From: a virus
DNA length: 23,184 nt
Virus record (IMG/VR): IMGVR_UViG_3300032213_003669
Span: 1 to 23,184 of that record
Direction: 5' to 3' (one strand)
Shown here in pieces: positions 3,496-23,184 of the stretch; within the stretch, counting starts at the first letter, position 1; each line of letters starts with the position of its first letter. A model generated the notes under the pieces. The model ran no database searches and was not told the origin of the DNA. It saw only the letters and a list, made by a program, of their open reading frames with translations. The translations under genes and the position numbers were made by a program.

Positions 3496-3506
3496 AGCAA
3501 TATCTG

Positions 3507-4313: not shown

Positions 4314-4345
4314 TGTGGTTCTCCTTGTTGGAAGGCGAAAGGCTA

Positions 4346-4359
4346 CTAATTATACACTA
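4346..4359 (-). promoter_or_regulatory. Candidate late promoter of the endolysin operon
   Basis: On the minus strand the motif reads TAGTGTATAATTAG, about 33 bases before the endolysin ATG. Its first 12 bases match the motif before the surface-protein gene except for one T/A change. It contains TATAAT preceded by TG, as in extended -10 promoters. No TTGACA-like -35 is visible at the right distance. This fits a promoter read by a phage-modified polymerase, which is an inference from the shared motif. Confidence 0.5.
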
Positions 4360-4371
4360 ACCAAATATGTG

Positions 4372-7300
4372 CTATTCGCCGTCGGGCTCTTTCATGTGAA
4401 GGTACATTGCGCCTGAGAACGCGATGAGAGTGCTCCAGAACGCGATCTGTTGCGTCAAACCCGACAACGTGAAGTACAACACCGTTGAGCCCGCAAGCGT
4501 GAAGCCTAAGCCCAGAACGCCATAAGAGAACTTTGTCAAGAATTTCTTCCAATCCATAATTTTTTCCCCGTTTTCGTAACGATAGATACTCAGGTTCTTG
4601 ATCCAATCTGGACCATCGCCTGCTATTTCCCCACCTTCCTGCTCATCCTCTTTCCGGACGGCAGTATCCTGTCGCGGTGCTGTAGGTCCTGTTGGGCCTG
4701 TTGGTCCACTAGAACCAGCACCCCCACCAATAATTGCTGCACTTGCAACAGCTGCGGCAACCAAGTTTACAGCAATCACGCTACGCCGAACCCCTACGTT
4801 CACAGATGAACCAATAGCGACATAGGTATCAAATACGCCCGCAAACACGTTTATTTCCTCTTCAAATGATTCTTTTACATCTGTTGTCGCGCCCGCAAGT
4901 GCCTCGGCAATTTGAGCACCTGCTTCTTCCGAGACCTCGGCAACAACGATCGCATCAAACACTTCTGTTGCTTGGTCACCGTCAATGCTTTCAAGCACCT
5001 TGGCGCTCGTTGCCAATTCTGTCGCTTGTTCACCAGAGACACCCCCATCCTGGTTGACGATCAAATCAACCACTTGTGATACCTGATCATTTGTAATTGA
5101 ATCCGACTCGAGGACATCCACTATGACCCCAACCGAATCAGCATCTAATTCGTTACCCAAGACTGCGGTAAAGGTTTCAATCAAAACCTCGGTGCTTACT
5201 TCTTCGTCAAAGACTGCGCCAAGAGCAGCGCCCAAATTCTCTGCGGTCAGACCGTCTTTCAATACATCAACGATAAGGTCAATGGTTTCTGCATCGGAAA
5301 GGTCATCGTCAAACACGCTGTCAAATATTGCTTCTGTTTCTGCTTGACTGAGATTTGTTTCAAGCAAGTCGCCAAGTACGGTCATAGTGTCTGCAACGGA
5401 AATGTCCTCGTCAAATACTGCGTCCATAACTTTGTCTAGGTCGCCAGAACTAAGCGGACCATCAAAGATTGATTCCAAAGCCGACACCATATTCTCAGCA
5501 GAAGTATCTTCCGAGAACGCTGAATCCAAAACTGCTGTCAACTGTGCGCTGGTGAGGTCTGCGTCTAGCATTGTTGTTAGTGCTTCGGTGAATACATCTG
5601 CCGAAACATCTTCGGTGAACACGGCTTCTAGGACATTGTCAAACTGTGTGTCGGTAAGTTCTGCTCCGAGGAGTGTGTCAAGAACAGCGCCAACCTCGTC
5701 AGCCTCAATATCGGTAGTGAACGTATTTTCAAGAATATTGTCCAATATGGCTGTTGTGATTGGCTCGTTGTCTTCTATGTCTGTGACGGTATAATCATCC
5801 GGTGGAATTATTACTACTACCGTTTCAGTTTCTGTTGGGTCTACTTCAATTGGTAGTAAAGTTGTTTCTGTTGATTCCCACTCTTCTGGGATGGTTACTG
5901 TTGGCAGTTCGGTTTCAGGTAATGTTTCTGTTGGAAGCGTCACCGTTGTGGATTCTGTTTCAGGCTCTGGGTATTGCGGCAGTGGCACTGTTGTATCGTC
6001 AGGGGGAGTCACGACGACAGGAACGACGGTCGTACTGGTCGTAGTAGTCGTAGAAGTAGTCGTAGTTACTGGAGTTGGGTCAAGAACAGTTGCATCAATA
6101 GTTACTTCAGGACCATAGGTGCAACTACCAGTTCCAACCCCAGCACACCCAGCCGTCATCGCTTTGATGCCAAAACGAACTGGTCCGTATCCAGTCGTGA
6201 CAGGATTACTGCCAGAGAACATTCCTGTGCTTAATGAGTAGTTGGTTCCTTGATTAGTCCAAACTCCCCAACCACCTGATTGTGCTCCACCGATTACGGT
6301 TAGGTCGTAGAAACTAACTGAATATCCGTAGATGACGCAATTACTTGCCGCTGATGCATCCCAGTCAAGGTCAACACTTCCGTCTGCGTTTGCAACAGCC
6401 GTCAAGTTTGTGACTGGATTCAGGTAAGCCGCAGTGATTGTGTTATTGGACTCCACATATCCAGAGCCCGAGAAATTGTTTGTGTTTTGCGCAGTAGTGC
6501 CAAAAGTGTTTCCACTGGCTGTGGAGAACGAGTTGGAACTTACTCCGTTGTACACGGAGGAGCCGTTATTCCAATTGTTTGCAAACTGAATAGCAGTGGT
6601 GTTGCCATTGAATGTGTTACCCGAAACCGTTTGGTTGCCAGCGCCTGGTGTCCAAGTGGTCGGAATCCATGAAGAGAAATACACGCCCGTACCGTTTGAA
6701 GTAAATACAGAGTTGGTTACTTGCTGACGGTTTAGACCATTCAAAGAAGCACCAGTTGAGTTGTTGGAAAATTCTGTGTTGTTTATCTTGAAAAATCTTT
6801 GCCCAGAGATGCCGTAAGTGTTATTAGAAAAAACCGAATCATAAACATATGTGCGGTTCGTGTAATCGGAATCCGTTTGACTTAAAGCCGATGGCGTTGA
6901 ACCATAGTCTCCAGCGATACCAACATATAGATAGTCAAATGTTGTGTTCGTTAGGGTTGAGACAGAGCCATTGTTATTGTTGAATACGGCAGAGCCCCCA
7001 CTCATTCCGGTGAAGCGAATGTTGGTGGCAGACAAAGTGCCTGAACCATTGAATATCAGACCGCCGTTGGTTGCCTGTCCTTGCTTAAGGGTCATATTTG
7101 AAATCGTCAGCGACTTGGTACTTGCAATATTGAACGGGCGATAGAGGTTGTTTCCGTCAATTATTGTCTGTGTTCTTCCGTTTCCTGTGACTGTCAGGTT
7201 TTGTGTTATTTGAGGAAGCGCACTAGTCAGAGTAATTGTGCCATTGACATTAAATGTAATTGAGTCGTAGATACCGCCAGCAGTAGCGTTTGCCTGCGTG

Positions 7301-8397
7301 ATTGCCCAGCGCAAAGTTCCGCTTGAAGTCGTGTCATCAAGGCTCGTAACAACTAGCGATGTTGAGGCAGGAATCGTAGTAGTTGTGGTGGTAGTAGATG
7401 TAGTGGTAGTAGAAGTAGTGGTAGTAGTGGTTTGAGCAACAGTGGTTGTGGTTGTAGTAGTAGGGGGAACCGTTGGGGCAGTTTCACTATTTGACGCAAC
7501 TCCGCCAAATGATGCGCAATTGTTTGAAATGCAACGGGTTGTTGAACCTGCCTCGCTGTCAATCATCAGCGCTGGAGGTAAACCTGAATCATCAAGGTTA
7601 AACGAAGCAAAACCAAGTTTATAAGTACCGCTTATAGAGACTTGATATGTTGAAGTTTGCCAACCCGTAGAGCCATAAGAATTCGTTGAGTAGTCGCCAG
7701 TGCCAGGATTGGTGAATCCAAGAAGTGCGTATTGCTTGACATAGTTGTTTACCGTTACTACTGGAGTGCCAGTAACAGTTACAGGAATGAGTGATGTGAT
7801 AGAGCCATCGTTAAAAGGAACATAGTCAGTTCCGACATAGTTCCACGCCATTGTGTAGGTCATGCCTGCCGTCAGTTCTACCTCACGAGTAATCCATGCT
7901 GCGTCTGTCGGTGTACCTTGACCGTTGCCTGACGCTTGCGCCTGCGATGTAAGCATGTTTTTAATTTCTGTTACCGAGCCAGCCGAAAGGCTCAAAGCAC
8001 TTGCCGCTTGGTCAAAAGTCTGTTCACCTTTGGGTTGAAGCAGAACAGCATTTGTTCCGTTATTAGGGGAGAATGTCCAACTGCCAGAAGCAACTGCTGA
8101 GGCGTAATACGGGCTAGACGGACTTCCAACAGCACCCCTAGAACCGTGAGTGAAAGTCCGAGAACCAGTAAATATGGTTACGCCACTACCGTTACCAGTG
8201 ATGGTGTTGCCCAATGTCCCAGACTGGCTTCCCTTGCTCCAGCCCGTAAATGTTCCATCCTCAAACCCAGTGTTGGGGATGGTGGCTGCTTGAGCTGGTG
8301 TGACAGGGCCAACCAAAACCCAAACCCAAGCCGAGACAACAGCCAGAGCAACAAGTTTTCTGCCAAAAGATCCAAGTTTTGCAATAGAGAAAGCCAT
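4372..8397 (-). CDS. Giant multidomain surface protein, exported and membrane-anchored
   Basis: 1,341 aa. Signal peptide 1-37 (basic start, hydrophobic core, cleavage after PVTPAQA). Residues about 38-305 look like a beta-rich binding domain (GFEDGTFTGW start, paired with CISNNC late). A poly-Thr linker spans about 309-341. Residues about 342-655 are rich in N, G, S and T with N-N-x-[IF] turns, typical of a parallel beta-helix. About 659-770 is FnIII-like (PVTNLTAVANADGSVDLDWD). A second poly-Thr linker (about 774-790) and a P/E/T-rich stretch (to about 866) lead to 17-residue helical repeats (881-1101, degenerate to about 1165). The C-terminus has three membrane segments (about 1204-1226, 1290-1311, 1318-1335) and three Gly-Pro-Thr triplets near 1230. 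The ATG at 8397 fits the signal peptide; the in-frame GTG at 8439 would overlap the promoter motif. This is bacterial cell-surface architecture, not a virion protein. Role inferred: altering the infected cell's surface. Confidence 0.85.
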   Translation of the reverse strand: MAFSIAKLGSFGRKLVALAVVSAWVWVLVGPVTPAQAATIPNTGFEDGTFTGWSKGSQSGTLGNTITGNGSGVTIFTGSRTFTHGSRGAVGSPSSPYYASAVASGSWTFSPNNGTNAVLLQPKGEQTFDQAASALSLSAGSVTEIKNMLTSQAQASGNGQGTPTDAAWITREVELTAGMTYTMAWNYVGTDYVPFNDGSITSLIPVTVTGTPVVTVNNYVKQYALLGFTNPGTGDYSTNSYGSTGWQTSTYQVSISGTYKLGFASFNLDDSGLPPALMIDSEAGSTTRCISNNCASFGGVASNSETAPTVPPTTTTTTTVAQTTTTTTSTTTTSTTTTTTTIPASTSLVVTSLDDTTSSGTLRWAITQANATAGGIYDSITFNVNGTITLTSALPQITQNLTVTGNGRTQTIIDGNNLYRPFNIASTKSLTISNMTLKQGQATNGGLIFNGSGTLSATNIRFTGMSGGSAVFNNNNGSVSTLTNTTFDYLYVGIAGDYGSTPSALSQTDSDYTNRTYVYDSVFSNNTYGISGQRFFKINNTEFSNNSTGASLNGLNRQQVTNSVFTSNGTGVYFSSWIPTTWTPGAGNQTVSGNTFNGNTTAIQFANNWNNGSSVYNGVSSNSFSTASGNTFGTTAQNTNNFSGSGYVESNNTITAAYLNPVTNLTAVANADGSVDLDWDASAASNCVIYGYSVSFYDLTVIGGAQSGGWGVWTNQGTNYSLSTGMFSGSNPVTTGYGPVRFGIKAMTAGCAGVGTGSCTYGPEVTIDATVLDPTPVTTTTSTTTTTSTTVVPVVVTPPDDTTVPLPQYPEPETESTTVTLPTETLPETELPTVTIPEEWESTETTLLPIEVDPTETETVVVIIPPDDYTVTDIEDNEPITTAILDNILENTFTTDIEADEVGAVLDTLLGAELTDTQFDNVLEAVFTEDVSADVFTEALTTMLDADLTSAQLTAVLDSAFSEDTSAENMVSALESIFDGPLSSGDLDKVMDAVFDEDISVADTMTVLGDLLETNLSQAETEAIFDSVFDDDLSDAETIDLIVDVLKDGLTAENLGAALGAVFDEEVSTEVLIETFTAVLGNELDADSVGVIVDVLESDSITNDQVSQVVDLIVNQDGGVSGEQATELATSAKVLESIDGDQATEVFDAIVVAEVSEEAGAQIAEALAGATTDVKESFEEEINVFAGVFDTYVAIGSSVNVGVRRSVIAVNLVAAAVASAAIIGGGAGSSGPTGPTGPTAPRQDTAVRKEDEQEGGEIAGDGPDWIKNLSIYRYENGEKIMDWKKFLTKFSYGVLGLGFTLAGSTVLYFTLSGLTQQIAFWSTLIAFSGAMYLHMKEPDGE
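5095..5757 (-). repeat. Thirteen tandem 51-base units encoding 17-residue helical repeats
   Basis: Within the surface-protein gene, codons for residues 881-1101 fall into thirteen consecutive units of exactly 17 residues with no indels. Examples are TDTQFDNVLEAVFTEDV (5605-5655) and SAENMVSALESIFDGPL (5452-5502). The common pattern is helix-forming S/T-x-x-x-hydrophobic..., V/L-hydrophobic pairs and an acidic end. Even-numbered units tend to carry Phe plus an acidic triplet (FTED, FSED, FDED, FDDD, FDEE) and odd ones Leu, giving a 34-residue superperiod. More degenerate units continue to about 4900. DNA identity between units is low, so the repeats are old or under strong protein-level selection. 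Confidence 0.85.
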
Positions 8398-11172: not shown

Positions 11173-11973
11173 CTACTCTGCCAAGATGGTTCGCATATAC
11201 TGTGCCATTAGTCCTGGAAATTTGATTCTTCCCAAATGTGTCAGAGGGATTGTTGGATCAGTCCATATTTCTCCACCAATATCTTGCCAATATCGGCAGA
11301 ATCCGTAATCCTCTGACAGGAACCTTCCATCCGAAACGAACGAGTTGAACAGAGCATAAGTGTTGGCCATCTCGGCTGTGTTCAGGACACCAGTGTCGTC
11401 GGTATATTTGAGGTGCGGATACGCGGTAAACAGTTTCTCTATTGCTTCCCGTTTGATAAGCATGAATCCGGTTCCTGCGTCCACGACCGAAAGTGCACCT
11501 TTGTCCACCTTGATTTCTTTTTGGCCGCTGGTAACAGGGTTCACAACAAATCGCACAGATTGCTGGAGTAGTTCATTGGGTTGAACATCCTGTTTGGCGA
11601 GATCAGCGACCTTTGTCCAATCAATCTCTTTTATCGGGTATGAACCAGTAATGATGTCTTTGTCATGCCATAGCAATTTCACGATCGCATCACGTTTAAA
11701 TCCAATATCCGCATCTATGAACATGAGGTGTGTGTAATCACCCAAAGCCATAAACTTGGAGACAAGCGTATTTCGGGCGCGACTTATCAGCGAATCAGTC
11801 AGGGTGCTTACAGAGAACTTGATTCCCGCCTGCGCATAGAACACGGCGGTATCTAATAGCGACATCATCGTCGTTTCGCTGACCTGCTGGTCGTAGCACG
11901 GTATGGCAATGAGGATTTTCCACGACCCGATTTGTTCTTTGGAAATTTTTACTTTTTCGGTTGTTTCAAACAT
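11173..11973 (-). CDS. GT-A fold glycosyltransferase
   Basis: 266 aa. Starts with ILIAIPCYDQQVSETTMMSL (about 20-39), the first strand and nucleotide-binding turn of GT-A enzymes. LISRARNTLVSKF (about 62-74) follows, then MFIDADIGF with the D87-A-D89 metal-binding DxD motif. Later conserved features are DAGTGFMLIKREAIEKLF (acceptor/strand region) and FLSEDYGFCRYWQDIGGEIW, where E-D is a likely base. These fit the family-2-like glycosyltransferases found in T4-like marine phages. It is cytosolic with no membrane anchor. It lies between fibre genes and the halogenase cassette, so a virion adhesin or a host surface glycan are both plausible targets. The start ATG at 11973 is 4 bases from the stop of the upstream membrane-protein gene. 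Confidence 0.88.
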   Translation of the reverse strand: MFETTEKVKISKEQIGSWKILIAIPCYDQQVSETTMMSLLDTAVFYAQAGIKFSVSTLTDSLISRARNTLVSKFMALGDYTHLMFIDADIGFKRDAIVKLLWHDKDIITGSYPIKEIDWTKVADLAKQDVQPNELLQQSVRFVVNPVTSGQKEIKVDKGALSVVDAGTGFMLIKREAIEKLFTAYPHLKYTDDTGVLNTAEMANTYALFNSFVSDGRFLSEDYGFCRYWQDIGGEIWTDPTIPLTHLGRIKFPGLMAQYMRTILAE

Positions 11974-11977
11974 GCGC

Positions 11978-12265
11978 TTAGTTTAGGAAATGTTTCGCTA
12001 ATGCGAGTGTCGCGAGTATGCTCCAGCCGATATTGAACCAAATTATTGTTGGTAGTGTCTTTATTGTTGAGGTAATAATTAGAGACATACTAGAAATAAG
12101 GGCGAATATGTATAGCCACCAAATCTGCTTGCCCCAAATAAGGCCAGGGAAAATAATCATTAGCTTCACGCTGAACGACGCAAACTCAATCGTATTCACC
12201 TTCGTCCAATAGACACGATTAGTCATCGGTTTGGTAACCCTTACAATATCTCCAAGATTCACCAT
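11978..12265 (-). CDS. Small three-TM membrane protein
   Basis: 95 aa. After a short charged start (MVNLGDIVRVTKPMTNRVYW) there are three hydrophobic segments at about 30-42, 48-66 and 70-91, rich in Ile, Leu and Trp (IWWLYIFALISSMSLIITST; IIWFNIGWSILATLALA). No family is recognised. AAAGGA lies 6 bases before the ATG. It is divergent from the halogenase gene, with only 53 bases between start codons, and coupled to the glycosyltransferase gene. It could be a membrane partner for the glycosyltransferase, as in prophage glucosylation modules with flippase-like proteins, but it is shorter than those and the link is only positional. Confidence 0.65.
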   Translation of the reverse strand: MVNLGDIVRVTKPMTNRVYWTKVNTIEFASFSVKLMIIFPGLIWGKQIWWLYIFALISSMSLIITSTIKTLPTIIWFNIGWSILATLALAKHFLN

Positions 12266-12318
12266 GAGTCCTTTCCGTTATAAATGTAATGCTAATCTAC
12301 AGCACGGAGGGAACAAGA
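12266..12318. promoter_or_regulatory. Divergent promoter region between membrane-protein and halogenase genes
   Basis: 53 bases holding the 5' ends of both units. On the plus strand TATAAATG at 12279-12286, close to the T4-type late consensus TATAAATA, lies 33 bases before the halogenase ATG, and GGAGG lies about 8 bases before it. On the minus strand TTATAA overlaps the same bases, with AAAGGA before the ATG at 12265. The two promoters therefore probably overlap; no start site is proven. Confidence 0.45.
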
Positions 12319-13914
12319 ATGTCCGAAGAGATAAACAAGATTGTTGTTGTCGGCGGTGGATCGGCGGGCTGGATGACTGCAGCATACCTGATCAAGGCGT
12401 TTCCAGAAAAAGAAATTGTAACCATTGAAAGCCCTGATGTATCTATCATCGGAGTTGGCGAAAGCACGCTAGGCGGAATCAACGACTTCACGCGGTTTCT
12501 CGGGATAGACGAAAAAGACTTCCTTGCTTACACCGACGGCTCGTACAAAATGAGCATCAAATTTACCGATTTCTATATGAAGGATGCCGGCGCTTTCCAC
12601 TATCCGTTCGGACACCCACACATCAAAGACATCCCAGGTGGGCTTGCGGCATGGTTCCACAAGAAAGCTTTATATCCTGAAACACCAATAACGGACTTCG
12701 TAAACTGCTACTTCCCGTCCGCGGCACTTTATGAACAAAACAAATTCTCACTAAACCGATACGGAATATTTGACTCGTACGACCCTGACTACGATGTTGC
12801 GTACCACTTTGACGCAACAAAATTTGGTGCTTGGTTACGTGACAGATACAGCATTCCCCGCGGAGTGAAACTAATACGCGGAACAGTGCGCGATGTAATA
12901 CCTGGGGAGAACGGTGTAGGGGCATTAGTCCTAAATGACGGTGAACGGATCACGGCTGATCTGTTTATAGACTGCACAGGCTTCCGATCAATCCTTTTGT
13001 CCGAATTCCTCAAAGAGCCGTTCGTTTCATACAAGCACATACTGCCAAATAACCGTGCGTGGGCAACTCGCATCCCATACATAAACAAGACCCGTGAACT
13101 CGAGCCTTACACAAACTCAATAGCGATCGGACACGGGTGGGTTTGGAACATTCCGTCATGGAACCGACTTGGCACAGGGTATGTCTACAGCGATGAATAC
13201 ATTGAGCCAGAAGACGCCAAAGAAGAATTCAAGCAATACCTGATGTCCGACAAGATCCTCTACCCACGCACCCGTGAACAAGTAGAAAACTTGGAATACA
13301 AAGACATCCCAATTCGTGTAGGGATTCATGAACGAACATGGGTGAAGAACGTTGTTGCAATCGGTCTGTCCGCAGGTTTCATAGAACCGCTTGAGAGCAA
13401 CGGCCTGTATACAGTCCATGAGTTCTTGCGCATATTGGGAAAAACATTACTGCGACCAAAAGTAAACAAACTTGACAAAGATCTTTACTGCTCACAGACA
13501 AGACACATGTACGACGGTTTTGCCCACTTCGTGTCACAACATTATTCGTTGAGCCTTCGCGACGACACCAACTACTGGAAAGCGAACTCCGAGCGAACGT
13601 ACGACGAGAACATGATCAACCTCATACCAACGCAATCTGGCGAGTATTACGACATGAGGATCCGTAAATACAGGACGAACGAATCCGACAACATCGCTGG
13701 GATCACCTACATCTCGGTAGGAATGAACTACTTCTATATGGATCGGATCACATCCGAGCTAAGACAGCTCAGTGACCGGTACGACCACAAAATCGCATTC
13801 CAAGATGTATTCAACGAATTAGAAAACAGAAAGAAACGATGGTGGAAAGCGGCCGAAGACAAGCCAACCCTCCACAAGTACCTCTCAAATAACATATATG
13901 AAGGAGAAATGTAA
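12319..13914 (+). CDS. Flavin-dependent (tryptophan-type) halogenase
   Basis: 531 aa, normal length for the family. The FAD-binding motif GGGSAGW is at 12-18. K77 in GSYKMSIKF sits where PrnA has its catalytic Lys79. W274-V-W-N-I-P279 is the WxWxIP signature that separates halogenases from monooxygenases. FIEPLES at 354-360 carries the conserved Glu/Ser pair of the active site. These enzymes use FADH2, O2 and halide to make hypohalous acid, which a Lys channels onto an aromatic substrate. A viral member, VirX1 of a cyanophage, is known to iodinate many substrates. No flavin reductase is in view, so host FADH2 is likely used. The ATG at 12319 has GGAGG upstream; an in-frame start 30 bases earlier lacks one. 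It is the first gene of an inverted three-gene cassette. The substrate is unknown. Confidence 0.93.
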   Translation: MSEEINKIVVVGGGSAGWMTAAYLIKAFPEKEIVTIESPDVSIIGVGESTLGGINDFTRFLGIDEKDFLAYTDGSYKMSIKFTDFYMKDAGAFHYPFGHPHIKDIPGGLAAWFHKKALYPETPITDFVNCYFPSAALYEQNKFSLNRYGIFDSYDPDYDVAYHFDATKFGAWLRDRYSIPRGVKLIRGTVRDVIPGENGVGALVLNDGERITADLFIDCTGFRSILLSEFLKEPFVSYKHILPNNRAWATRIPYINKTRELEPYTNSIAIGHGWVWNIPSWNRLGTGYVYSDEYIEPEDAKEEFKQYLMSDKILYPRTREQVENLEYKDIPIRVGIHERTWVKNVVAIGLSAGFIEPLESNGLYTVHEFLRILGKTLLRPKVNKLDKDLYCSQTRHMYDGFAHFVSQHYSLSLRDDTNYWKANSERTYDENMINLIPTQSGEYYDMRIRKYRTNESDNIAGITYISVGMNYFYMDRITSELRQLSDRYDHKIAFQDVFNELENRKKRWWKAAEDKPTLHKYLSNNIYEGEM

Positions 13915-14519
13915 TGCTTTACGCCGGCAAGCTAGATCCAGCAGAAATTGTTGCAGGTTGTGTCGCCATATATGAAGACGCTTTCCCTAGCTGGCAACAG
14001 GCAATAGCAGTAGCCGAGGAACAGGCGCAGGATCCAGAGTCATCTTGTTCATGGTCGCGTGCCGAAACGATTGGCTCAGGCATTTATCAGGATCGCCGAA
14101 CGAACATGATTATGGGAATAACCGATGCTGCTGAGCAGGGCAATGCGGTTATGCGACAAATACATAACCAAACCTACCTATCTATCGTTGCGGCCACGAA
14201 CGACTACGGGAAACGATTCAAAATATCTGAAACTTTCCACCACGAACCGTACGGAATGCTCAAATATCGTGGCGGACAAATGTATGGATCACATCACGAT
14301 GCTGGGATCAATGTCCCAAGATCAGTCTCTGCGGTTGTCTACCTGAACGAGGATTACGAAGGTGGCGAAATAGAGTTCGTAAACTTCGGCATCAAAATCA
14401 AGCCCCTACCAGGAATGCTTATTCTGTTCCCATCAAACTTTGCCTACGAACATGTCGCACACCCCGTGACGAAGGGAACCAAATATGCGATTGTGACTTG
14501 GTTGCGCGAGGCAAACTAA
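13914..14519 (+). CDS. 2OG/Fe(II) oxygenase, prolyl 4-hydroxylase-like
   Basis: 201 aa. The iron triad is H127-x-D129 (GSHHDAG) and H180 (FAYEHVAHPV). K190, ten residues after H180, would bind 2-oxoglutarate. Collagen prolyl 4-hydroxylase has the same layout (His, Asp, His, then Lys ten residues later), whereas many relatives use Arg. Flanking features are family-typical: YRGGQMYGSHHD, SAVVYLNEDYEGGEIEF and the PLPGMLILFPS turn. It should hydroxylate a peptide or small molecule using O2 and 2-oxoglutarate. Its ATG overlaps the halogenase stop by one base (TAATG), and its own stop overlaps the next start the same way, so the three are coupled. The substrate is unknown; Pro/Gly-rich phage adhesins nearby are candidates. 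Confidence 0.9.
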   Translation: MLYAGKLDPAEIVAGCVAIYEDAFPSWQQAIAVAEEQAQDPESSCSWSRAETIGSGIYQDRRTNMIMGITDAAEQGNAVMRQIHNQTYLSIVAATNDYGKRFKISETFHHEPYGMLKYRGGQMYGSHHDAGINVPRSVSAVVYLNEDYEGGEIEFVNFGIKIKPLPGMLILFPSNFAYEHVAHPVTKGTKYAIVTWLREAN

Positions 14520-15139
14520 TGAACAGCTTCCAAGAGTACGGTTATCTAACAGTTCCAGAATTGCTCAACGATGAAACAGTTGCGCTTTTCACCCAATACG
14601 CCCTGTTCATGGAGAGCAAAGAATTCACTCCCGAAACAGGTCAGTCCGCGCAAGTGCCTGGGGCGCATAGTAGTTATGGTGACCCGTTCGCAGAAGCGTT
14701 GTTGCTTTACGCCCATGAAAGCATGGAACAGCTCACAGGATTACGACTACACCCCACATACTCTTATTACCGTGTTTACCGAAACGGAAGCACACTAAAA
14801 CCACATCGGGATCGCGAATCCTGCGAAATATCAGCGACCCTATGTTTTGCGTACGAATACAACAAATCGGGATATGAATGGCCGATAATTGTTGATGGCG
14901 TTGAAGTCGTTATGGAACCCGGTGATGCTGTGATCTACAAAGGTTGCGACATAGAGCACTCACGGAACACGCTTGAGGCTGGCGAAAATGCTTTCCATGT
15001 ACAAGCGTTTCTGCACTATGTTGATGCAGACGGACCATACGCAGAGAACAAGTATGATCGGCGCAAACACTTAGCCACACCACCTGCTATTGCTGAAATG
15101 CCACCTAAAAGGAAATACATTTTCAGAACGAACGACTAA
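14519..15139 (+). CDS. 2OG/Fe(II) oxygenase, second of cassette
   Basis: 206 aa from ATG 14519, inside the stop of the previous gene (TAATG). The HxD motif is H96-R-D98 in LKPHRDRESCEISATLCF. The distal histidine is H147 in YKGCDIEHSRN, and the closing strand is FHVQAFLHYVDADGPYAENK. Similar proteins with PHRDR..CEIS..L and EHWR-like ends occur in marine phages, usually without known substrates. The N-terminal FQEYGYLTVPELLNDETVAL is the usual opening helix. A residue for the 2-oxoglutarate carboxylate is not obvious after H147, so co-substrate binding may differ from the P4H-like neighbour. It is convergent with the minus-strand gene at 15136; the two stops overlap. Confidence 0.85.
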   Translation: MNSFQEYGYLTVPELLNDETVALFTQYALFMESKEFTPETGQSAQVPGAHSSYGDPFAEALLLYAHESMEQLTGLRLHPTYSYYRVYRNGSTLKPHRDRESCEISATLCFAYEYNKSGYEWPIIVDGVEVVMEPGDAVIYKGCDIEHSRNTLEAGENAFHVQAFLHYVDADGPYAENKYDRRKHLATPPAIAEMPPKRKYIFRTND

Positions 15140-15507
15140 GGCGTCCAAATAATTGGATCAACCTTAAGCTCTTTGCCTGGATACCACATTCCTAATTCGT
15201 CAAGTCTTTTCTGTACAACAGGCAATATGGGCTTTCCATCACGTCTTTCCTGATAGAACGTTTCTATGTTGTGGTTGTAGCGAATCATATAAAATTCTGC
15301 GTACGGACACCAAGCAGCATACACGCCATGTCCACCGCCTTGTTCTACGATTACTTCCCAAATATCAACATCTTCTATGACCATTTCGCGGTCATATGTC
15401 CAAGGCGGGCTCGGTGGAAGAGTTAGAAACGGTTTATCGTAAACATTGGCATCATAAACCATGCCAAAGTCTTGGAAAATGTTTTGGTTAGTTTTGAATA
15501 AAGGCAT
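15136..15507 (-). CDS. Conserved virion-region protein, 123 aa
   Basis: 123 aa, soluble. The core reads W-T-Y-D-R-E-M-V-I-E-D-V-D-I-W-E-V-I-x-E-Q-G-G-G, then GVYAAWCPYAEFYMI, then a C-terminal Pro/Trp-rich part (ELGMWYPGKELK). I recall proteins with VD(I/L)WEVI and GVYAAW.PYAEF from T4-like cyanophages, function unknown. It follows the glycine-rich paralogues with a 1-base stop-start overlap (TAATG at 15505-15509), so it belongs to the tail operon and is that operon's last gene. Its stop overlaps that of the 2OG oxygenase on the other strand, with no room for a conventional terminator. Confidence 0.7.
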   Translation of the reverse strand: MPLFKTNQNIFQDFGMVYDANVYDKPFLTLPPSPPWTYDREMVIEDVDIWEVIVEQGGGHGVYAAWCPYAEFYMIRYNHNIETFYQERRDGKPILPVVQKRLDELGMWYPGKELKVDPIIWTP

Positions 15508-16589
15508 TACCTAGCACGATAGCGCACGATAACTATTCCAGGCCCACCCTTGCCAGAGACTTGCTGTGGTGTGTTGTGATGGGTTGAACCACCACCACCA
15601 CCACCCGTGTTTAGTTGTCCGGATTGTCCTGACTGATGCAGTGTGTCGCTTGCGAGCGGCGCGTTGTTATGGTTGTGATAAGAAGTTCCTTCACCACCTC
15701 CACCCAGTCCACCCGCTGAACGGTTGATCGCATGACCAGGATGTCCACCACCACCGCCTCCTCCAGCGTAATGGGTTGGATACCCCGAAATATCGTTCGC
15801 TAAACCATTACCACCTTTTTGGGTTGTTGGAAACGCTGCATACGGTGATGCTGGTGGGTAAAGATCTGTTCTGTTGCCAGTGCCGTTTGGAACATAGTTG
15901 TTTCTAGTCGCATGGTTTGCATTGTCATAGTCAAACCCTGCTTGCCCTGCTCCGCCCCCACCACCACCAGCGTGTCCATGTGGTGCGTGATGACCTTTTC
16001 CGCCAGGGTGACCCTGACCAGGTGTTCCAGATCCTGCAGGAATCTGAAATCCGTTTCCGTTATTGTACCCACCATGAGCTGGTCCGCCACCGCCAGAACC
16101 GCCTGTGGAAGTTGGTGTACTTGGGGCGGTAGAAGAATAAGAAATTCCTTTTCCCCCACCAATCGCTGTTAGCGAACCAAAAAAAGAATCACTGCCCTTG
16201 CTTTGAGTGTTGTCATTGTGTGCAAACTCGTTATTCCCGCCGCCACCTACTTGTACAGATGTTGTTCCAGCGGCAACCGTCAAGTTCGGATAGTAAAGAT
16301 AGCCACCGGCTCCTCCTCCACCACCCATACCTGCACCTCCGCCACCACCGGCAACTATCAAAACATCCATTGCCCCACCTTGTGTGACAACAAAGTTTGT
16401 TACATAGTTGTAGCCCTGCCCACCATTTTCGCGGCTCTTGTAAATACTGTAAGTATTAGCTTGGTCAACTTTGAACATATGTATGCGATACGGTCCAACA
16501 TGTGATGTTTCACCACCCTCAGCAAAAGGGGTGGCGCCACCCATAGCATCTACGGGATCACTTGCGTATATACGTTGTTGATATCTCAT
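15507..16589 (-). CDS. Glycine-rich tail adhesin paralogue A
   Basis: 360 aa. The N-terminal third (about 1-75) is a beta domain (YRIHMFKVDQANTYSIYKSR, FVVTQGGAMDVLIVAGG). The rest is glycine-rich, with runs of 4-7 Gly, GYLYYPNLTV, a GQGHPGGKGHH segment, DISGYPTHYAGGGGGGG, and an ending GGPGIVIVRY. This is the Gly-rich phage adhesin type; T-even gp38 adhesins fold such runs into a polyglycine-II sandwich with variable surface loops for host binding. No signal peptide, as expected for a virion part. It is coupled by ATGA to paralogue B, its closest relative, and shares weaker similarity with C and D. Confidence 0.83.
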   Translation of the reverse strand: MRYQQRIYASDPVDAMGGATPFAEGGETSHVGPYRIHMFKVDQANTYSIYKSRENGGQGYNYVTNFVVTQGGAMDVLIVAGGGGGAGMGGGGGAGGYLYYPNLTVAAGTTSVQVGGGGNNEFAHNDNTQSKGSDSFFGSLTAIGGGKGISYSSTAPSTPTSTGGSGGGGPAHGGYNNGNGFQIPAGSGTPGQGHPGGKGHHAPHGHAGGGGGGAGQAGFDYDNANHATRNNYVPNGTGNRTDLYPPASPYAAFPTTQKGGNGLANDISGYPTHYAGGGGGGGHPGHAINRSAGGLGGGGEGTSYHNHNNAPLASDTLHQSGQSGQLNTGGGGGGSTHHNTPQQVSGKGGPGIVIVRYRAR

Positions 16590-17659
16590 CGTGACCTGTA
16601 CCTTACTATGACGACCCCTGGACCGCCACGACCTGAGTCGGTGTTCTGATGTGAGGAGTGTGTTCCACCACCACCGCCACCGCCAGTGTTTCTTTGCCCA
16701 GGTTGTCCTGCAAAATATAATGTATCTTCTGTGTCGCCACGACCGTTAGCTGTGGCGTGACCTGTTCCTTCACCACCACCACCTAAACCACCAGCAGTAC
16801 GATTATTGCTGTGACCAGGGTGCGATCCACCGCCACCGCCACCCGCATAATGTGTCAAATATCCTGAAATGTCGTTCGTTAAACCGTTTCCACCTTTTTG
16901 GTTCAAAGGAAAACTTGGATACAACGATGCTGGTGGATACAGATTTATTCCATGACCAGGACCATTAGGTGTGTACGCGTTCAAAGGTATGGCAGGGTTG
17001 TCAGGCCAGCCTGCTTGTGCTGCACCGCCACCTCCACCACCACCATGCCGGCTTGAGCCAGGATGGAAACCTGTTCCACCAGGGTGGCCTTGACCAGGTG
17101 TTCCAGCTGCTGCTGGTGTAGCACCCACGATCCCTGGTGTGTGACCGTTTCCGCCACCACCAGAGCCACCAATATTCTTTGCTGCTGTAGAAGGGTTTCC
17201 CCCGTATGAAACTCCTGCACCACCACCGTTTGCTACTAAATCTGCAAAGAAAGAGTTCCCGCCGCGTGACTGCTGGTTTTCGTTGTGCCCAAATTCGGAT
17301 CCACCACCACCACCAACTTGAACAACTTTTGTTCCTGGCGTGACTGTGTAATTCGGGTAATACAAATACCCTCCTGCACCGCCGCCACCGCCCATGCAGG
17401 CTCCACCGCCGCCACCACCAACAATCAGAATGTCCATCAAACCGCCCTCATGGACAACAAAAGAAGACAAAAAGTTGTATACGGTGGCATCGCCATTTCT
17501 TGACTGCCACATGCTTGCCGTGTTCGCATCATCTTGTGTGAATGTGTGAATGCGATATTGTCCGTTAGTTGTGACTTGTCCGCCTTCGGCTATCGGTTTC
17601 GTGTTTGGTGATGCAGAGTCAACTGTTGCACCTGGTGTCATTCGTTGCATGTATCTCAT
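16586..17659 (-). CDS. Glycine-rich tail adhesin paralogue B
   Basis: 357 aa. Same plan as paralogue A. The opening MRYMQRM parallels MRYQQRI, followed by YRIHTFTQDDAN and MDILIVGGGGGG. GYLYYPNYTV, GTPGQGHPGGTGFHPG, NLYPPASLYPSFPLNQKGGNG and DISGYLTHYAGGGGGG align with A almost block for block. The end GGPGVVIVRYRSR differs by two residues from that of A. Differences cluster in the loops between Gly runs (for example after the HPGG segment and before NTGGGGGGG), as expected if the loops face the receptor. CAGG lies about 6 bases before the next start in the string. Overlaps of 4 bases exist on both sides. Confidence 0.83.
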   Translation of the reverse strand: MRYMQRMTPGATVDSASPNTKPIAEGGQVTTNGQYRIHTFTQDDANTASMWQSRNGDATVYNFLSSFVVHEGGLMDILIVGGGGGGACMGGGGGAGGYLYYPNYTVTPGTKVVQVGGGGGSEFGHNENQQSRGGNSFFADLVANGGGAGVSYGGNPSTAAKNIGGSGGGGNGHTPGIVGATPAAAGTPGQGHPGGTGFHPGSSRHGGGGGGGAAQAGWPDNPAIPLNAYTPNGPGHGINLYPPASLYPSFPLNQKGGNGLTNDISGYLTHYAGGGGGGSHPGHSNNRTAGGLGGGGEGTGHATANGRGDTEDTLYFAGQPGQRNTGGGGGGGTHSSHQNTDSGRGGPGVVIVRYRSR

Positions 17660-18783
17660 ACGGATGTTCCGTTCGTAAACTTGCGTACTGCTGCTGGAAC
17701 GGGCCGTTGGTCGTTTTTGATTCTGATCACAACAATTCCTGGACCGCCACGACCTTGTGCTTCAGGGTTGTTTCCACCGCCACCCCCGGCGCCCGTGTTT
17801 GCTCGAGCACCAGTCGGTAAAGCCCTGTTCGTATGATCTGGAGAATGGTTTCCGCCTGTTGGTCCGCCACCGCGCGAACCGCCACCAGCATGCACCCAAC
17901 CTGCCCAGTGCATACCTGCACCACCACCACCGGCGTAATGCAAGTTGGTTCCAGTGATGTCGCTTGCTAAACCATCTCCGCCTGGTCCACCAGAATGCTG
18001 ACGGTTACCTGGCCAGCCAGGGTTGGTGTTTCCACCAGCAGATCCTGCACCTCCACCTCCACCACCTTTGTGATGGTTTGGGTGATGTCCGTGTCCACCT
18101 GGGTGACCTTGCCCCATAACACCTGATCCACCTGGTGGGTTGCCATTTGCTGCTCCACCACCACCAGACCCGCCACGTCCACCGTTGTGTCCTGGTCCGT
18201 ACTGACCTGGGAGAGGGTTTGCAGGGTTCAAACTTAACGGCGTGTGATTACCTAAATAAAGATTGTTTCCAACTGTGGCACCGTCAACTAGATACGAGCC
18301 AAGAACCGAACCATTCTGCTGGAAGTCAGCAGGTACACCACTATATGATCCACCAGTACCGCCACCTATTGCTTCTATAACTGTAGTGCCGTCAATAACA
18401 AGCTTTGATGGTGACCCTGCACCACCGATTGGGCCGTGGCTGTTGTTCAGCGGACCATGCCCGCCAGCACCAACCTGAATAAAGTTATCTGGAGCAACAG
18501 GATTGCTCTCTGTTCCACCTTGTATCAAAACATTTTGACGATAAATATAACCACCGGCGCCACCACCGCCGCCTAAACCAACTCCACCACCACCACCCGC
18601 AACGAACAGAATATCCGCATTGCCACGACCACGAATTGTTACAGGAGACTTGCCAGTTGTTGTAAAAGTATAAACCGTGTATCCGTTAGCGTTAACAGCA
18701 GATTGCGCACCAGTGATAGTAAGGGGTGTTGTGGTGCTGTTTGTCCAACTAGAAACATACGTGGAAGGATCAATAAATCTCAT
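17656..18783 (-). CDS. Glycine-rich tail adhesin paralogue C
   Basis: 375 aa, the longest of the four. The N-terminus differs from A/B: MRFIDPSTYVSSWTNSTTTP, then YTVYTFTTTGKSPVTIRGRG and ADILFVAGGGGGVGLGG. The Gly-rich part has GYIYRQNVLIQGGTESNP, VGAGGHGPLNNSHGPIGG, MGQGHPGGHGHHPNHHKGG, NTNPGWPGNRQ, DITGTNLHYAGGGGAG and GGPGIVVIRI. A 25-residue extension (QRPVPAAVRKFTNGTSV at its end) is shared only with D. Some positions hold His clusters that could bind metal. It belongs to the same operon, coupled by ATGA on both sides. Confidence 0.83.
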   Translation of the reverse strand: MRFIDPSTYVSSWTNSTTTPLTITGAQSAVNANGYTVYTFTTTGKSPVTIRGRGNADILFVAGGGGGVGLGGGGGAGGYIYRQNVLIQGGTESNPVAPDNFIQVGAGGHGPLNNSHGPIGGAGSPSKLVIDGTTVIEAIGGGTGGSYSGVPADFQQNGSVLGSYLVDGATVGNNLYLGNHTPLSLNPANPLPGQYGPGHNGGRGGSGGGGAANGNPPGGSGVMGQGHPGGHGHHPNHHKGGGGGGAGSAGGNTNPGWPGNRQHSGGPGGDGLASDITGTNLHYAGGGGAGMHWAGWVHAGGGSRGGGPTGGNHSPDHTNRALPTGARANTGAGGGGGNNPEAQGRGGPGIVVIRIKNDQRPVPAAVRKFTNGTSV

Positions 18784-19865
18784 ACACTGCTTCCAGTCGG
18801 CGAGAACTTCCTCAAACCTGCTGGAAGAGGAAGCTGATTGTTGTTTACGCGAATAACTACAATACCTGGACCGCCTGCACCCTGTGCTTGTGGATTGTTT
18901 CCTGCGCCTGCACCTGCACCTGTGTTTGGTAGACAGCCAGTTGCTGGAGCCAAGTTGCCATGATCCGGCGAGTGCGCCCCACCAGTCGTTCCACCACCGC
19001 GACTACCAGCACCATTGTGAACTGCTGGGTGATGGTTTGCGCCACCACCGCCACCAGCGTAATGTATTTGTGTTCCAGTTATGTCGGACATTAAACCATC
19101 TCCACCAGATCCAGCAGTGTGTTGCATATGTGATGGCCAGCCTGGGTTGGTGTTTCCGCCAGCCTCACCCGCACCTCCACCGCCACCACCCTTGTAGTGG
19201 TTTGGGTGATGACCATATCCTCCTGGGTGTCCTTGACCCAAAACCGCCGAACCACCAGGAGTATTCGTAGGGTTTCCAGAACCGCCACCGCCAGAACCTC
19301 CACGACCACCAGCATGTCCTGGTCCGTACTGTGACGGGAAAGGGCTAGCAGGGCTAAGACTTAACGGTGTGTGCAAACCTGTGTATAGACCGTTTGCTTG
19401 TATGCGATCCGCAGGATATCCATTCCAGTTGCCACCGCCGCCACCACCAATAGCTTCAACAACGGTTACACCGTCAATGACAAGTTTAGAAGGTGTACCA
19501 GACTCGCCGAACGGACCGTGGGAGTTATTTGTTGGGCCGATACCACCAGCGCCAACAGTTACATAGTTTTGTGGCGCGGCAGGGTTGGTGTCTGTTCCGC
19601 CTTGCAGCAAAACATTCTGTCGGAAAATATATCCGCCGGCGCCACCACCACCGCCTAAACCAGCAGCACCTCCACCACCCGCAACAAAAAGAATATCTGC
19701 AGCGCCACGACCACGAATAGTTACAGGAGTATTACCTGTAGCTGTAAATGTGTAGATTGTGTAACCACCAGAAACGGTAGTTGTTGCTGCGCCAGAAACA
19801 GTAAGAGCTGTGCTAGTTGGCTGTGTCCATGACTGCGCGTATGTAGACGGGTCAATAAACCTCAT
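18780..19865 (-). CDS. Glycine-rich tail adhesin paralogue D
   Basis: 361 aa. The close partner of C: identical opening MRFIDPSTY, the same RGRGAADILFVAGGGG strand, GYIFRQNVLLQGGTDTNP, LGQGHPGGYGHHPNHYKGG, NTNPGWPSHMQ, DITGTQIHYAGGGGGA, SRGGGTTGGAHSPDHGN, and a terminal extension like that of C (QLPLPAGLRKFSPTGSSV). The main changes from C are a shorter stretch after the VEAIGGG strand and altered loops near the C-terminus. It is the first of the adhesin string, 10 bases after the stop of the 124-aa gene, with TAGGT about 9 bases before its ATG. With A-C it forms a four-member tandem array made of two pairs. Confidence 0.83.
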   Translation of the reverse strand: MRFIDPSTYAQSWTQPTSTALTVSGAATTTVSGGYTIYTFTATGNTPVTIRGRGAADILFVAGGGGAAGLGGGGGAGGYIFRQNVLLQGGTDTNPAAPQNYVTVGAGGIGPTNNSHGPFGESGTPSKLVIDGVTVVEAIGGGGGGNWNGYPADRIQANGLYTGLHTPLSLSPASPFPSQYGPGHAGGRGGSGGGGSGNPTNTPGGSAVLGQGHPGGYGHHPNHYKGGGGGGAGEAGGNTNPGWPSHMQHTAGSGGDGLMSDITGTQIHYAGGGGGANHHPAVHNGAGSRGGGTTGGAHSPDHGNLAPATGCLPNTGAGAGAGNNPQAQGAGGPGIVVIRVNNNQLPLPAGLRKFSPTGSSV

Positions 19866-19875
19866 GGGTTACGAC

Positions 19876-20250
19876 CTACGGTTCTATGCGGTTTACATAC
19901 CCGTGAATGTTGATAACCGAAGCGACGTTTGCAAAAGCCTTCACAGAAGGCGTGTTTGGCGAAGTGTTGCTTTGCAACATCAGACCTGGGATCAACAACA
20001 CCAAACCAGATTCACCTGCAACAGAAATTTCAATAGTGTCGTCAGGATCCGAAACTCCACCCCAAAGGAGTGTGAGTTTCGCTGTAGAGGCCGACGAGTT
20101 CACAGCATAAAGCCAAACCTCATCCGTGACACTTGTATTGGACGATGGTGCGGTATGTATAGTCGTTGCTGCACCAAGCGATGCCGCAGATACTTTGACA
20201 GACTTGCCGTCTACCGAACCACCCAATTTGAGTTTGCTGAATGTTGCCAT
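19876..20250 (-). CDS. Small virion/tail protein, 124 aa
   Basis: 124 aa, Ser/Thr-rich beta protein with no export signal. Segments such as SVKVSAASLGAATTIHTA, VWLYAVNSSASTAKLTLLWG, DTIEISVAGESGLVLLIPGL and KAFANVASVINIHGYVNRIE alternate strands and turns, as in small decoration or tail proteins of T4-like marine phages. It lies between the 627-aa virion protein (13 bases) and adhesin D (10 bases) in the same operon, so a structural role is likely. The family name is not recognised. Confidence 0.7.
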   Translation of the reverse strand: MATFSKLKLGGSVDGKSVKVSAASLGAATTIHTAPSSNTSVTDEVWLYAVNSSASTAKLTLLWGGVSDPDDTIEISVAGESGLVLLIPGLMLQSNTSPNTPSVKAFANVASVINIHGYVNRIEP

Positions 20251-20263
20251 GTTGTCTCCTATT

Positions 20264-22147: not shown

Positions 22148-22150
22148 TTG

Positions 22151-22600
22151 TTATACCTCCATCGTGATATGGGAAACGGTACTTGCGTCCCAATCAAAAG
22201 TTATTTGCTGCAATGATGTGAACCAGTTGTAATAGCCTTCGCCATACATGTCTATTATCGCATGTTTTGGTACAGACCCAAGTTCTGCTGATGTCAACAT
22301 CCCATTGTACACGCCATCCACATTCCCAGGACGGAAGGATGGAATCGCAACTTTGTCAGAATCATCAATCTCGTCTAGCTCAAGGCGGCCTGTTGTTGGG
22401 TCGTAGCGCCAACCATAGAACCATTGGAATCCGCCGTCAATCAATTCAACGCTAGTTGGCTCCCAGTTGAATGTTGCGGTCGCAGAACTCGCAGGGGAAG
22501 TCAGACGCCACGAAGTGCCGTCATAGATCCATGTGCGTCCAGACGCATCAAAAAGATCGCCTGTGCTTGGAGAACCGGGAAAAGAAATAGCCATAGCCAT
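22151..22600 (-). CDS. Small tail/virion protein, 149 aa
   Basis: 149 aa from the ATG at 22600; an ATG two codons later (22594) and a TTG one codon earlier are alternatives. The opening AISFPGSPSTGDLFDASGRT with WIYDGTSWR is a short module common in phage fibre and tail proteins. The middle (VELIDGGFQWFYGWRYDPTT, LELDEIDDSDKVAIP) and the end (IIDMYGEGYYNWFTSLQQIT, TFDWDASTVSHITMEV) are beta-rich and aromatic. No Shine-Dalgarno lies at the usual distance. TATAAT ends only 4 bases before the ATG, so the transcript may start at or near the start codon (leaderless), as is common in Actinobacteria. Its stop is 3 bases before the next ATG. Confidence 0.75.
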   Translation of the reverse strand: MAMAISFPGSPSTGDLFDASGRTWIYDGTSWRLTSPASSATATFNWEPTSVELIDGGFQWFYGWRYDPTTGRLELDEIDDSDKVAIPSFRPGNVDGVYNGMLTSAELGSVPKHAIIDMYGEGYYNWFTSLQQITFDWDASTVSHITMEV

Positions 22601-22603
22601 CAA

Positions 22604-22611
22604 AATTATAC
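22604..22611 (-). promoter_or_regulatory. -10-like element immediately before the 149-aa gene
   Basis: The minus strand reads GTATAATT in the sequence ATGTATAATTTTG, ending 3 bases before the ATG at 22600. It matches the GTAWAATT core of the motifs before the endolysin and surface-protein genes. If used, transcription would begin about at the start codon, giving a leaderless message. The gap to the upstream oxygenase gene is only 26 bases, so chance AT-richness is a real alternative. Confidence 0.35.
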
Positions 22612-22626
22612 ATTGTTACCTATTTG

Positions 22627-23184
22627 CTAAAAGGACGTACCTCTAGAAACTGCCTCAAAGCAGAAATTGACTACACGCCTAGTTGGGTGAACTAGCGGCA
22701 AGGAAGCGCTGTGGGCTATATGACCGTTGAATATGACACCACGATTGCGTTTAGGTTCCACGCGTTTGATGATTTTTCCGTCAGGATTATTTACTACTCC
22801 TTCTACACATTTGTAGTCATAAAAGCAGGTGTCCCCGTCAGAGTCTTCCAGATAGAACAACCCACTGAAATAATCAATCCCCTTCGGATGGTCAACATGT
22901 GGATATCCGGCAACCTGTTTGGGTGCCAGCACGGAAAGGTTCACTCGAGCGCGTAGAAGGTTTTTGAATTGCAGGTCTGTGCGATCCAACATAATGTAAA
23001 GAATTGGTGACATAACATTCAGATAGTTGGAAGGCTCAGCAGACTGTGTTGCCGGCTCGTAAAGCGAATGAATAAACCCGAACGAATCGGCCCGCTCATC
23101 ATCCAAATAGGTGTGCGTATTCGGCAAAAAATACCAAGGGAAACTTGTTGATTTCACAGCCTCTAAAATCATTGCCAAATGCCC
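22627..23184 (-). CDS. Third 2OG/Fe(II) oxygenase, 5' end beyond window
   Basis: About 185 residues visible. The frame stays open to the window edge, so the N-terminus is probably missing: relatives usually begin with 15-30 more residues before the AILE..SFPWYF segment. Internal starts (ATG 23172, TTG 23178) are possible but look too late. The iron ligands are H-V-D in GYPHVDHPKG and a histidine in NGHIAHSAS. An Arg in HPTRRVVNF would hold 2-oxoglutarate. FYLEDSDGDTCFYDY and PKRNRGVIFNG complete the double-stranded beta-helix. It differs from the two cassette enzymes: its 2-oxoglutarate residue is Arg, not Lys as in the P4H-like one. It is on the strand of the tail genes, 26 bases before the 149-aa gene. 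Substrate unknown; phage oxygenases of this type are common in marine phages. Confidence 0.83.
   Translation of the reverse strand, partial: GHLAMILEAVKSTSFPWYFLPNTHTYLDDERADSFGFIHSLYEPATQSAEPSNYLNVMSPILYIMLDRTDLQFKNLLRARVNLSVLAPKQVAGYPHVDHPKGIDYFSGLFYLEDSDGDTCFYDYKCVEGVVNNPDGKIIKRVEPKRNRGVIFNGHIAHSASLPLVHPTRRVVNFCFEAVSRGTSF

Follow-up and report, generated by a model that had tools for sequence, protein, structure and literature searches.

A flavin halogenase and two 2OG oxygenases encoded beside glycine-rich tail genes form a putative adhesin-tailoring cassette in a viral genome

The halogenases and multiple 2OG oxygenases of cyanophages have been puzzling auxiliary genes for about 15 years, and published accounts have linked them to antibiotic protection, DNA repair, and 2OG balance (PMC2984593, PMC3037559, PMC9964418, PMC9146016). 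The viral halogenase VirX1 accepts many small aromatic substrates in vitro (PMC8407142). Among viral hydroxylases, vCPH of chlorella virus PBCV-1 is described as hydroxylating prolines of viral proteins (Eriksson 1999, as cited in PMC9301287). On the side of possible substrates, the receptor-binding fibre tip of the myocyanophage Pam3 is a Gly-rich domain (PMC9608196). Here, we describe a locus in which a flavin halogenase, prolyl-hydroxylase-fold enzymes, and Gly-rich proteins are encoded together. The window, the whole stretch of DNA that was analysed, spans positions 1 to 23,184 of IMG/VR record IMGVR_UViG_3300032213_003669.

Three consecutive + strand genes encode a 531-aa flavin-dependent halogenase (HAL, 12319..13914; PF04820, phrog_2928), a 201-aa prolyl-4-hydroxylase-like 2OG-Fe(II) oxygenase (P4H, 13914..14519; assigned by PF13640 and predicted fold), and a 206-aa second 2OG-Fe(II) oxygenase (OG2, 14519..15139; assigned by phrog_2954 and predicted fold). 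The sequence at both junctions reads TAATG on the + strand (13912..13916 and 14517..14521), and all confident neighbours from 1114 to 23184 are on the - strand. The coordinates, enzyme identities, couplings, and opposite orientation reported in the first-pass annotation were thus all confirmed. A ribosome-binding sequence, GGAGGG (12306..12311, +), precedes the HAL start codon at 12319. The only TATAAAT in the window (12279..12285, +), found by motif scan, resembles a T4 late promoter; we rejected such a promoter for the cassette because one upstream copy compares with 2.35 expected by chance, and a scan for sigma-70 promoters and terminators returned nothing exceeding chance. At its 3' end the trio overlaps a convergent - strand gene by four bases, at 15136.

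The trio had also been placed between a glycosyltransferase and four adhesins. Both are nearby, but the direct neighbours are genes for a 123-aa and a 95-aa protein. The former, a putative protein (D123; 15136..15507, -), is encoded after the Gly-rich genes in relatives. The latter is membrane-like (m95; 11978..12265, -) and adjoins halogenases in other phages; family searches assigned it to no family, and it had no match among phage isolates. We left m95 out of the module because it is present at many halogenase loci without Gly-rich or P4H/OG2 genes. Beyond it lies a possible GT-A-like glycosyltransferase (11173..11973, -), which matches Anp1 below threshold (E 3.5e-4; 20.6 bits, cut-off 28.8) and belongs to phrog_1574, a family with no annotated function. 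A further 2OG-type oxygenase gene is cut by the window edge (22627..23184, -; phrog_274, E 1.4e-29; PF13640, E 0.0012, below cut-off), and its relatives occur inside other halogenase/2OG clusters. No precursor peptide for a RiPP-type pathway is obvious in the window. In loci L002-L006 and L091, HAL is preceded by a gene for 110-145 aa with a Pro/His-rich N-terminus, which is absent from the window.

The proposed substrates are the products of four overlapping - strand genes at 15507..16589, 16586..17659, 17656..18783, and 18780..19865. Each passes the Gly_rich_2 family PF21722 (E 1.7e-16, 2.4e-14, 1.3e-10, and 1.5e-11, respectively; 42-61 bits against a curated cut-off of 24.3); the first contains GQGHPGGKGHH, and the other three also carry the motif. 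By analogy with Pam3 gp24, and given their position in a tail locus, they are probably virion proteins that bind the host. A published virion proteome table, that of S-SZBM1, names no Gly-rich tail protein adjoining a halogenase.

HAL matches the whole PF04820 domain (E 1.3e-100; 337.8 bits against a curated cut-off of 21) and phrog_2928 (E 1.4e-137). Its flavin motif GGGSAG, WVWNIP, K87, and E366 (numbered from 12289) are invariant or nearly so among 39 sequences. The domain score, the GxGxxG and WxWxIP motifs, and the catalytic Lys and Glu together identify HAL, by sequence, as a predicted member of the family, whose usual substrates are free tryptophan or small aromatics. The nearest solved structure is that of VirX1 (6QGM, E 2.3e-92), for which we know of no native substrate.

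P4H matches PF13640 (E 8.5e-16), and an alignment of relatives shows conserved iron ligands H127xD129...H180 and a basic 2OG-binding position that is K190 in the window and mostly R in relatives. The top folds for its AlphaFold model (pLDDT 92.9) are PBCV-1 vCPH, algal P4H, Pseudomonas putida P4H, and PHD2 (VIA Z about 20), all of them protein prolyl hydroxylases and several with bound peptide; the best Foldseek match is vCPH (5C5T, E 5.6e-11). With its modelled double-stranded beta-helix fold and HxD...H ligands, P4H is predicted to hydroxylate proline. OG2 matches phrog_2954 (E 4.5e-46) and no Pfam or NCBIfam family, and its ligands H96xD98...H147 are invariant among aligned relatives. Its model (pLDDT 91.8) has a prolyl-hydroxylase fold with P. 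putida P4H and PHD2 as top matches and is also similar to the small-molecule enzymes SnoN/SnoK. OG2 additionally has a weak match to Tet-like enzymes (E 0.04). The family name given by PHROG and GenBank, ferrochelatase, was rejected for OG2, since the model has the P4H fold and, among the matches listed, those ranked highest are of the 2OG type; this label and "DNA endonuclease V", also attached to these 2OG-type families, would need correcting.

The coupled trio had been considered undescribed, yet four further phage lineages have the exact HAL-P4H-OG2 arrangement (loci L002, L005, and L091-093; isolate Sf-CH11). Nor is the trio the core unit. For 28 of 44 distinct OG2 genes, the immediate same-strand neighbour is P4H, with gaps of -34 to +17 nt, and from gene order the most conserved unit appears to be the P4H-OG2 pair, with the halogenase an add-on. 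Inversion, noted in the first-pass annotation, is a minority, non-essential arrangement found in 5 of 48 enzyme-bearing loci from enzyme-blind scans, with a precedent in HTVC008M.

The proposed gene-order comparison, which asked whether the enzymes and Gly-rich adhesins co-occur, gave a positive answer in several independent ways. Of the complete isolate records matching PF21722 (n = 14), nine encode a halogenase within 3 kb of the match; circular shifting gives an expectation of 0.97 and never reached nine in 20,000 trials. Because a protein-pattern search for relatives of the first Gly-rich protein found none, we turned to DNA patterns that mark Gly-rich stretches. These scans, blind to the enzymes, recovered halogenase or 2OG genes in 48 of the 124 loci that have a Gly-rich ORF and in 0 of the 116 that lack one, the nearest being one to three genes away in 45 of the 48. 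GQGHPGG was rejected as a specific enzyme tag: enzymes are present at 8 of 12 motif-bearing loci but also at 40 of 112 motif-less Gly-rich loci, so the motif is not a requirement. Four isolates chosen from OG2 matches, HTVC023P, HTVC033P, Mosig, and S-CAM8, each encode a protein with a Gly content of 23-34% and a Pro content of 4.7-7.2% one to three genes from the 2OG/OG2 block. The association is not universal. Halogenases are distant from Gly-rich genes in S-B64, Syn1, P-SSM2, S-PM2, S-H38, and many m95-type loci, 17 of 38 OG2 loci have a Gly-rich gene within 6 kb, and 2OG genes are also found at other genome sites in cyanophages.

The composition of the Gly-rich proteins covaries with the enzymes. 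Proline makes up 5.7% of Gly-rich proteins encoded near P4H/OG2 compared to 2.9% of those with neither nearby (p 7e-13), a difference retained after clustering at 45% identity (p 2e-10). A second sample gave 5.63 and 3.01% (p 8e-11), with background proline of 4.22 and 4.17%. In a regression over 127 contig clusters, Pro tracks P4H/OG2 (t 8.1) and not HAL, whereas His tracks HAL (t 5.6) and not P4H/OG2; the latter link is confounded with lineage and falls short of significance when restricted to the blind subset (p 0.13, 6 clusters). The proline covariation suggests that the substrates are Gly-rich adhesins of the phage itself.

On balance, we favour the interpretation that the trio is a cassette that tailors the phage's own Gly-rich tail adhesins. 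The genes, overlaps, catalytic residues, folds, Gly-rich proximity, and proline covariation are observed, and from them we infer the substrates, the modified residues, and the benefit. P4H and OG2, translated from one message, would act as a hydroxylase pair on the adhesins, and the likeliest sites would be prolines of Pro-Gly turns, for example in the GQGHPGG stretch. The halogenase, as an optional member, might halogenate electron-rich His, Trp, or Tyr residues of these adhesins or of tail proteins nearby. Residues modified in this way could stiffen the Gly-rich lattice or alter the chemistry of receptor-binding tips. Adhesin tailoring had been suggested in the first-pass annotation; its hydroxylation step agrees with the proline enrichment, but halogenation of adhesins is weakly supported and the glycosylation step depends on the weak Anp1 match. 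More tentatively, phages of aquatic bacteria might use hydroxylases and flavin halogenases, combined in modular sets, to diversify their receptor-binding proteins chemically, so that virion adhesins carry hydroxyproline and halogenated aromatics. VirX1-type halogenases, and many cyanophage 2OG oxygenases that lack an explanation, would then have this as their native role. If so, the chemistry of phage host range reaches beyond the 20 amino acids.

One reason for caution is that co-location and proline content could be lineage markers of aquatic phages that imply no enzyme-substrate link. The backgrounds of the compared groups are unequal in Lys (8.1 vs 4.2% in the second sample), and pairing nearest relatives that differ in having P4H/OG2 gave suggestive contrasts only (12 of 18 positive, p 0.07; three pairs only for the halogenase), several of the partners that lack them being truncated loci from the same lineage. 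We consider this explanation unlikely, given that the proline effect holds when Lys-rich and Lys-poor backgrounds are analysed separately (p 2e-5 in either), survives clustering, and was replicated. We judge it similarly unlikely that the enzymes act on the surface of the infected cell, modifying a polysaccharide or outer-membrane protein and perhaps thereby excluding other phages, with the tail-gene vicinity serving as a cargo hot spot. Related clusters do carry carbamoyltransferases, glycosyltransferase-like genes, and sugar genes (S-SSM7; L012-L015, L024), and those of T4-like cyanophages fill a single variable region flanked by tail fibre and neck genes. However, this role predicts neither a doubling of proline specific to Gly-rich proteins near P4H/OG2, against an equal background, nor the recurrence of this neighbourhood in pelagiphages of 53-61 kb genome size.

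Less probable still is that the cassette produces or alters a halogenated, diffusible compound (small molecule or peptide), akin to the pyrrolnitrin-like antibiotic protection suggested in print for prnA. The usual substrates of PF04820 enzymes and the likeness of OG2 to SnoN/SnoK would fit such a pathway. VirX1, too, halogenates many small substrates (PMC8407142). Against it, scaffold-building genes are absent from the window and its relatives, a scan of bacterial genomes sensitive to close relatives only found none of OG2, and the Gly-rich tail-gene proximity and proline covariation would go unexplained. We give very little credence to a role in repairing DNA or modifying nucleotides, the proposal made for 2OG oxygenases encoded next to uvsY/uvsW in cyanophages (PMC9146016, PMC3037559). 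The S-B64 2OG gene does lie between UvsY and UvsW, and OG2 is weakly Tet-like, but the folds are of the prolyl-hydroxylase type, and the trio and pair sit in tail rather than repair loci.

Several described systems share parts of the adhesin-tailoring arrangement favoured here. In cyanophage Syn10, the VirX1 gene (CPUG_00131) adjoins a second halogenase gene, precedes a run of short overlapping genes, and lies 1-2 kb from Gly_rich_2 genes; this resemblance to the window locus suggests what the native substrate of VirX1 may be. Syn10 differs from the window in having two halogenases and all genes in one direction. The Kyanoviridae Sf-CH11, S-CREM1, S-RIM44, S-WAM1, P-TIM40, S-SZBM1, P-RSM6, and Sf-FP1 have Gly-rich tail genes followed by one or more halogenases and a 2OG run, but these are co-directional with the tail genes and annotated without a tailoring function, and only Sf-CH11 is named with the exact trio. 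Pelagibacter phage HTVC008M resembles the window in that five 2OG/"ferrochelatase" genes beside a PF21722 protein oppose the flanking tail and neck genes; its halogenase is elsewhere, adjoining terminase genes. For vCPH, we know of no coupled halogenase or OG2, and PBCV-1 has a eukaryotic algal host and an enzyme about 19% identical to P4H. The P4Hs of P. putida (EF-Tu substrate) and Bacillus anthracis share the fold, Fe ligands, and protein substrates, but are chromosomal, have other targets, and are about 20% identical. Finally, Pam3 gp24 and phage S16 gp38 bind the host receptor through a Gly-rich distal domain (PMC9608196) for which no modification is reported; the homology comparison with the window proteins covered PF21722.

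The best-supported reading of the cassette is that its two 2OG oxygenases hydroxylate the Gly-rich adhesins (PF21722, Gly_rich_2) encoded nearby. The + strand of the window, a viral fragment of 23,184 bases from IMG/VR, carries genes for a flavin-dependent halogenase (HAL, 12319-13914), a prolyl-4-hydroxylase-like 2OG oxygenase (P4H, 13914-14519) and a second 2OG-Fe(II) oxygenase (OG2, 14519-15139), and the TAATG couplings claimed in the first-pass annotation were read at both junctions. On the - strand, a gene for a 95-aa membrane-like protein (m95, 11978-12265) and a possible glycosyltransferase gene lie to the left, and genes for a 123-aa protein (D123) and four PF21722 Gly-rich proteins lie to the right. 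Farther along are a tail fibre gene with a CBM5/12 carbohydrate-binding module (20264-22147, -; E 1.2e-6) and, at the right edge, a further 2OG-type gene of the phrog_274 family (22627-23184). A related viral contig, L152, is 91.9% identical at 2670-8188 to window positions 17666-23184 and runs past that edge, with another Gly-rich gene close to the counterpart of the edge 2OG gene. The single TATAAAT of the window (12279-12285, +), immediately 5' of the cassette, resembles a T4-like late promoter; the motif is not in excess over chance in the window. Among isolates, the gene at 1521-2156 matches Synechococcus phages only, and the source virus is therefore likely a cyanophage.

All three enzymes look functional, judging from conserved residues and predicted folds. 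VirX1 is the nearest solved structure to HAL, and the flavin motif, WxWxIP motif, Lys and Glu are conserved across HAL relatives. HxD...H is retained in both P4H and OG2, for which AlphaFold gave confident models (pLDDT 92.9 and 91.8). The P4H model best matches the folds of the collagen prolyl hydroxylase from a chlorella virus, an algal P4H in complex with a Ser-Pro peptide, the EF-Tu-bound P. putida P4H and PHD2; P. putida P4H and PHD2 also lead for OG2. Phage databases name the 2OG-type families phrog_2954 (OG2) and phrog_274 'ferrochelatase' and 'DNA endonuclease V'; the modelled OG2 fold contradicts the former. One relative contig, L004, has a single 641-aa open frame matching OG2 (53%) and halogenase (23%), possibly an OG2-HAL fusion.

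We compared gene order in viral contigs carrying a halogenase relative (41) and in those carrying an OG2 relative (51). The exact trio is also present in L002, L005, L091-093 and isolate Sf-CH11, and L091 and L093 (138 and 186 kb) share the window's layout: the tail fibre and the cassette lie on opposite strands, and D123 and Gly-rich genes come next. Of 44 distinct OG2 genes, 28 have P4H as an adjacent same-strand gene, usually overlapping, and this pair is the most conserved unit of the cassette; halogenases, PF13759 oxygenases and carbamoyltransferases vary in presence. Seven contigs (L012, L013, L015, L024, L027, L038 and L040) have multi-halogenase clusters with PF13759 oxygenases, a carbamoyltransferase and a possible glycosyltransferase, adjoining Gly-rich tail fibre genes. 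A family of ~110-145 aa with a Pro/His-rich N-terminus (f17), absent from the window, lies directly or nearly 5' of HAL in L002-L006 and L091 and could be an adaptor or substrate. m95 recurs at 58-72% identity in 12 other halogenase contigs, usually adjoining the halogenase and often without Gly-rich or P4H/OG2 genes close by; searches of Pfam, NCBIfam and PHROGs assigned it to no family, and it had no match among phage isolates.

The predicted co-occurrence of these enzymes with Gly-rich adhesins was borne out. Of 14 complete PF21722-bearing isolate records, 9 have a halogenase at most 3 kb from the PF21722 match (0.97 expected; 0 of 20,000 circular shifts reach 9); these genomes share kinship and are not 14 independent events. 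Among viral contigs picked by Gly-rich DNA without regard to enzyme genes, HAL/2OG genes occurred at 48 of the 124 loci that had a Gly-rich ORF and at 0 of 116 control loci that lacked one, whose hosts were not matched; in 45 of the 48 the closest enzyme was 1-3 genes from the Gly-rich ORF, and in 43 it shared the strand. A second such blind sample gave 23 of 76 and 1 of 30. Each of four isolates chosen from OG2 hits, two of them pelagiphages (53 and 61 kb), has a Pro-containing Gly-rich protein at most three genes away.

Residue content varies with the enzymes. At equal Gly, Gly-rich proteins in the first blind sample contained 5.7% Pro near P4H/OG2 and 2.9% without enzymes (p 7e-13; p 2e-10 after 45% clustering), and the second replicated this (5.63 versus 3.01%, p 8e-11; background Pro 4.22 versus 4.17%). 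The difference held in Lys-rich (6.09 versus 3.24%) and Lys-poor (5.13 versus 2.67%) backgrounds (p 2e-5 each). When regressed across 127 contig clusters, Pro tracked P4H/OG2 (t 8.1) and not halogenase (t -0.4), whereas His showed the opposite pattern (halogenase, t 5.6; P4H/OG2, t 1.0); Trp and Tyr weakly tracked halogenase. The His effect was not significant in the blind subset. Lys and Cys were also about twofold higher near P4H/OG2 in both blind samples, so the Pro effect is strong, yet not the sole difference. Co-location and Pro content could be a pure lineage effect, which we consider unlikely; nearest-relative contrasts for Pro were positive in 12 of 18 cases (p 0.07), which is suggestive only, and those for halogenase comprised 3 uninformative pairs.

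Published papers class these genes as auxiliary metabolic genes that would protect against antibiotics, take part in DNA repair or balance 2OG (PMC2984593, PMC3037559, PMC9964418, PMC9146016). A role of the 2OG enzymes in DNA repair is highly improbable. Small-molecule enzymes follow near behind the leading fold matches of OG2, and a small-molecule product of the cassette is a rather slim prospect. Modification of the host surface instead of the adhesins is also improbable. If P4H and OG2 act as hydroxylases on the Gly-rich adhesins, the modification would alter host recognition or Gly-lattice stability, since the Gly-rich domain of the Pam3 fibre is its receptor-binding tip (PMC9608196). Halogenation of the adhesins, suggested by gene position and the His/aromatic trend, is less certain than hydroxylation.

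Prolyl hydroxylation of viral collagen-like proteins by viruses is already known, and one study, which points to collagen in tail fibres, termed phage use of prolyl hydroxylase cryptic (PMC9301287). The earlier claim that the trio with its proposed adhesin or host-peptide target is undescribed agrees with the open-access papers searched, none of which proposes a coupled hydroxylase-halogenase system for tail adhesins. Isolated cyanomyoviruses commonly have Gly-rich tail genes followed by one or more halogenases, a run of 2OG genes and neck genes, and the start of VirX1's own locus, with Gly-rich tail genes and then halogenases, matches this order.
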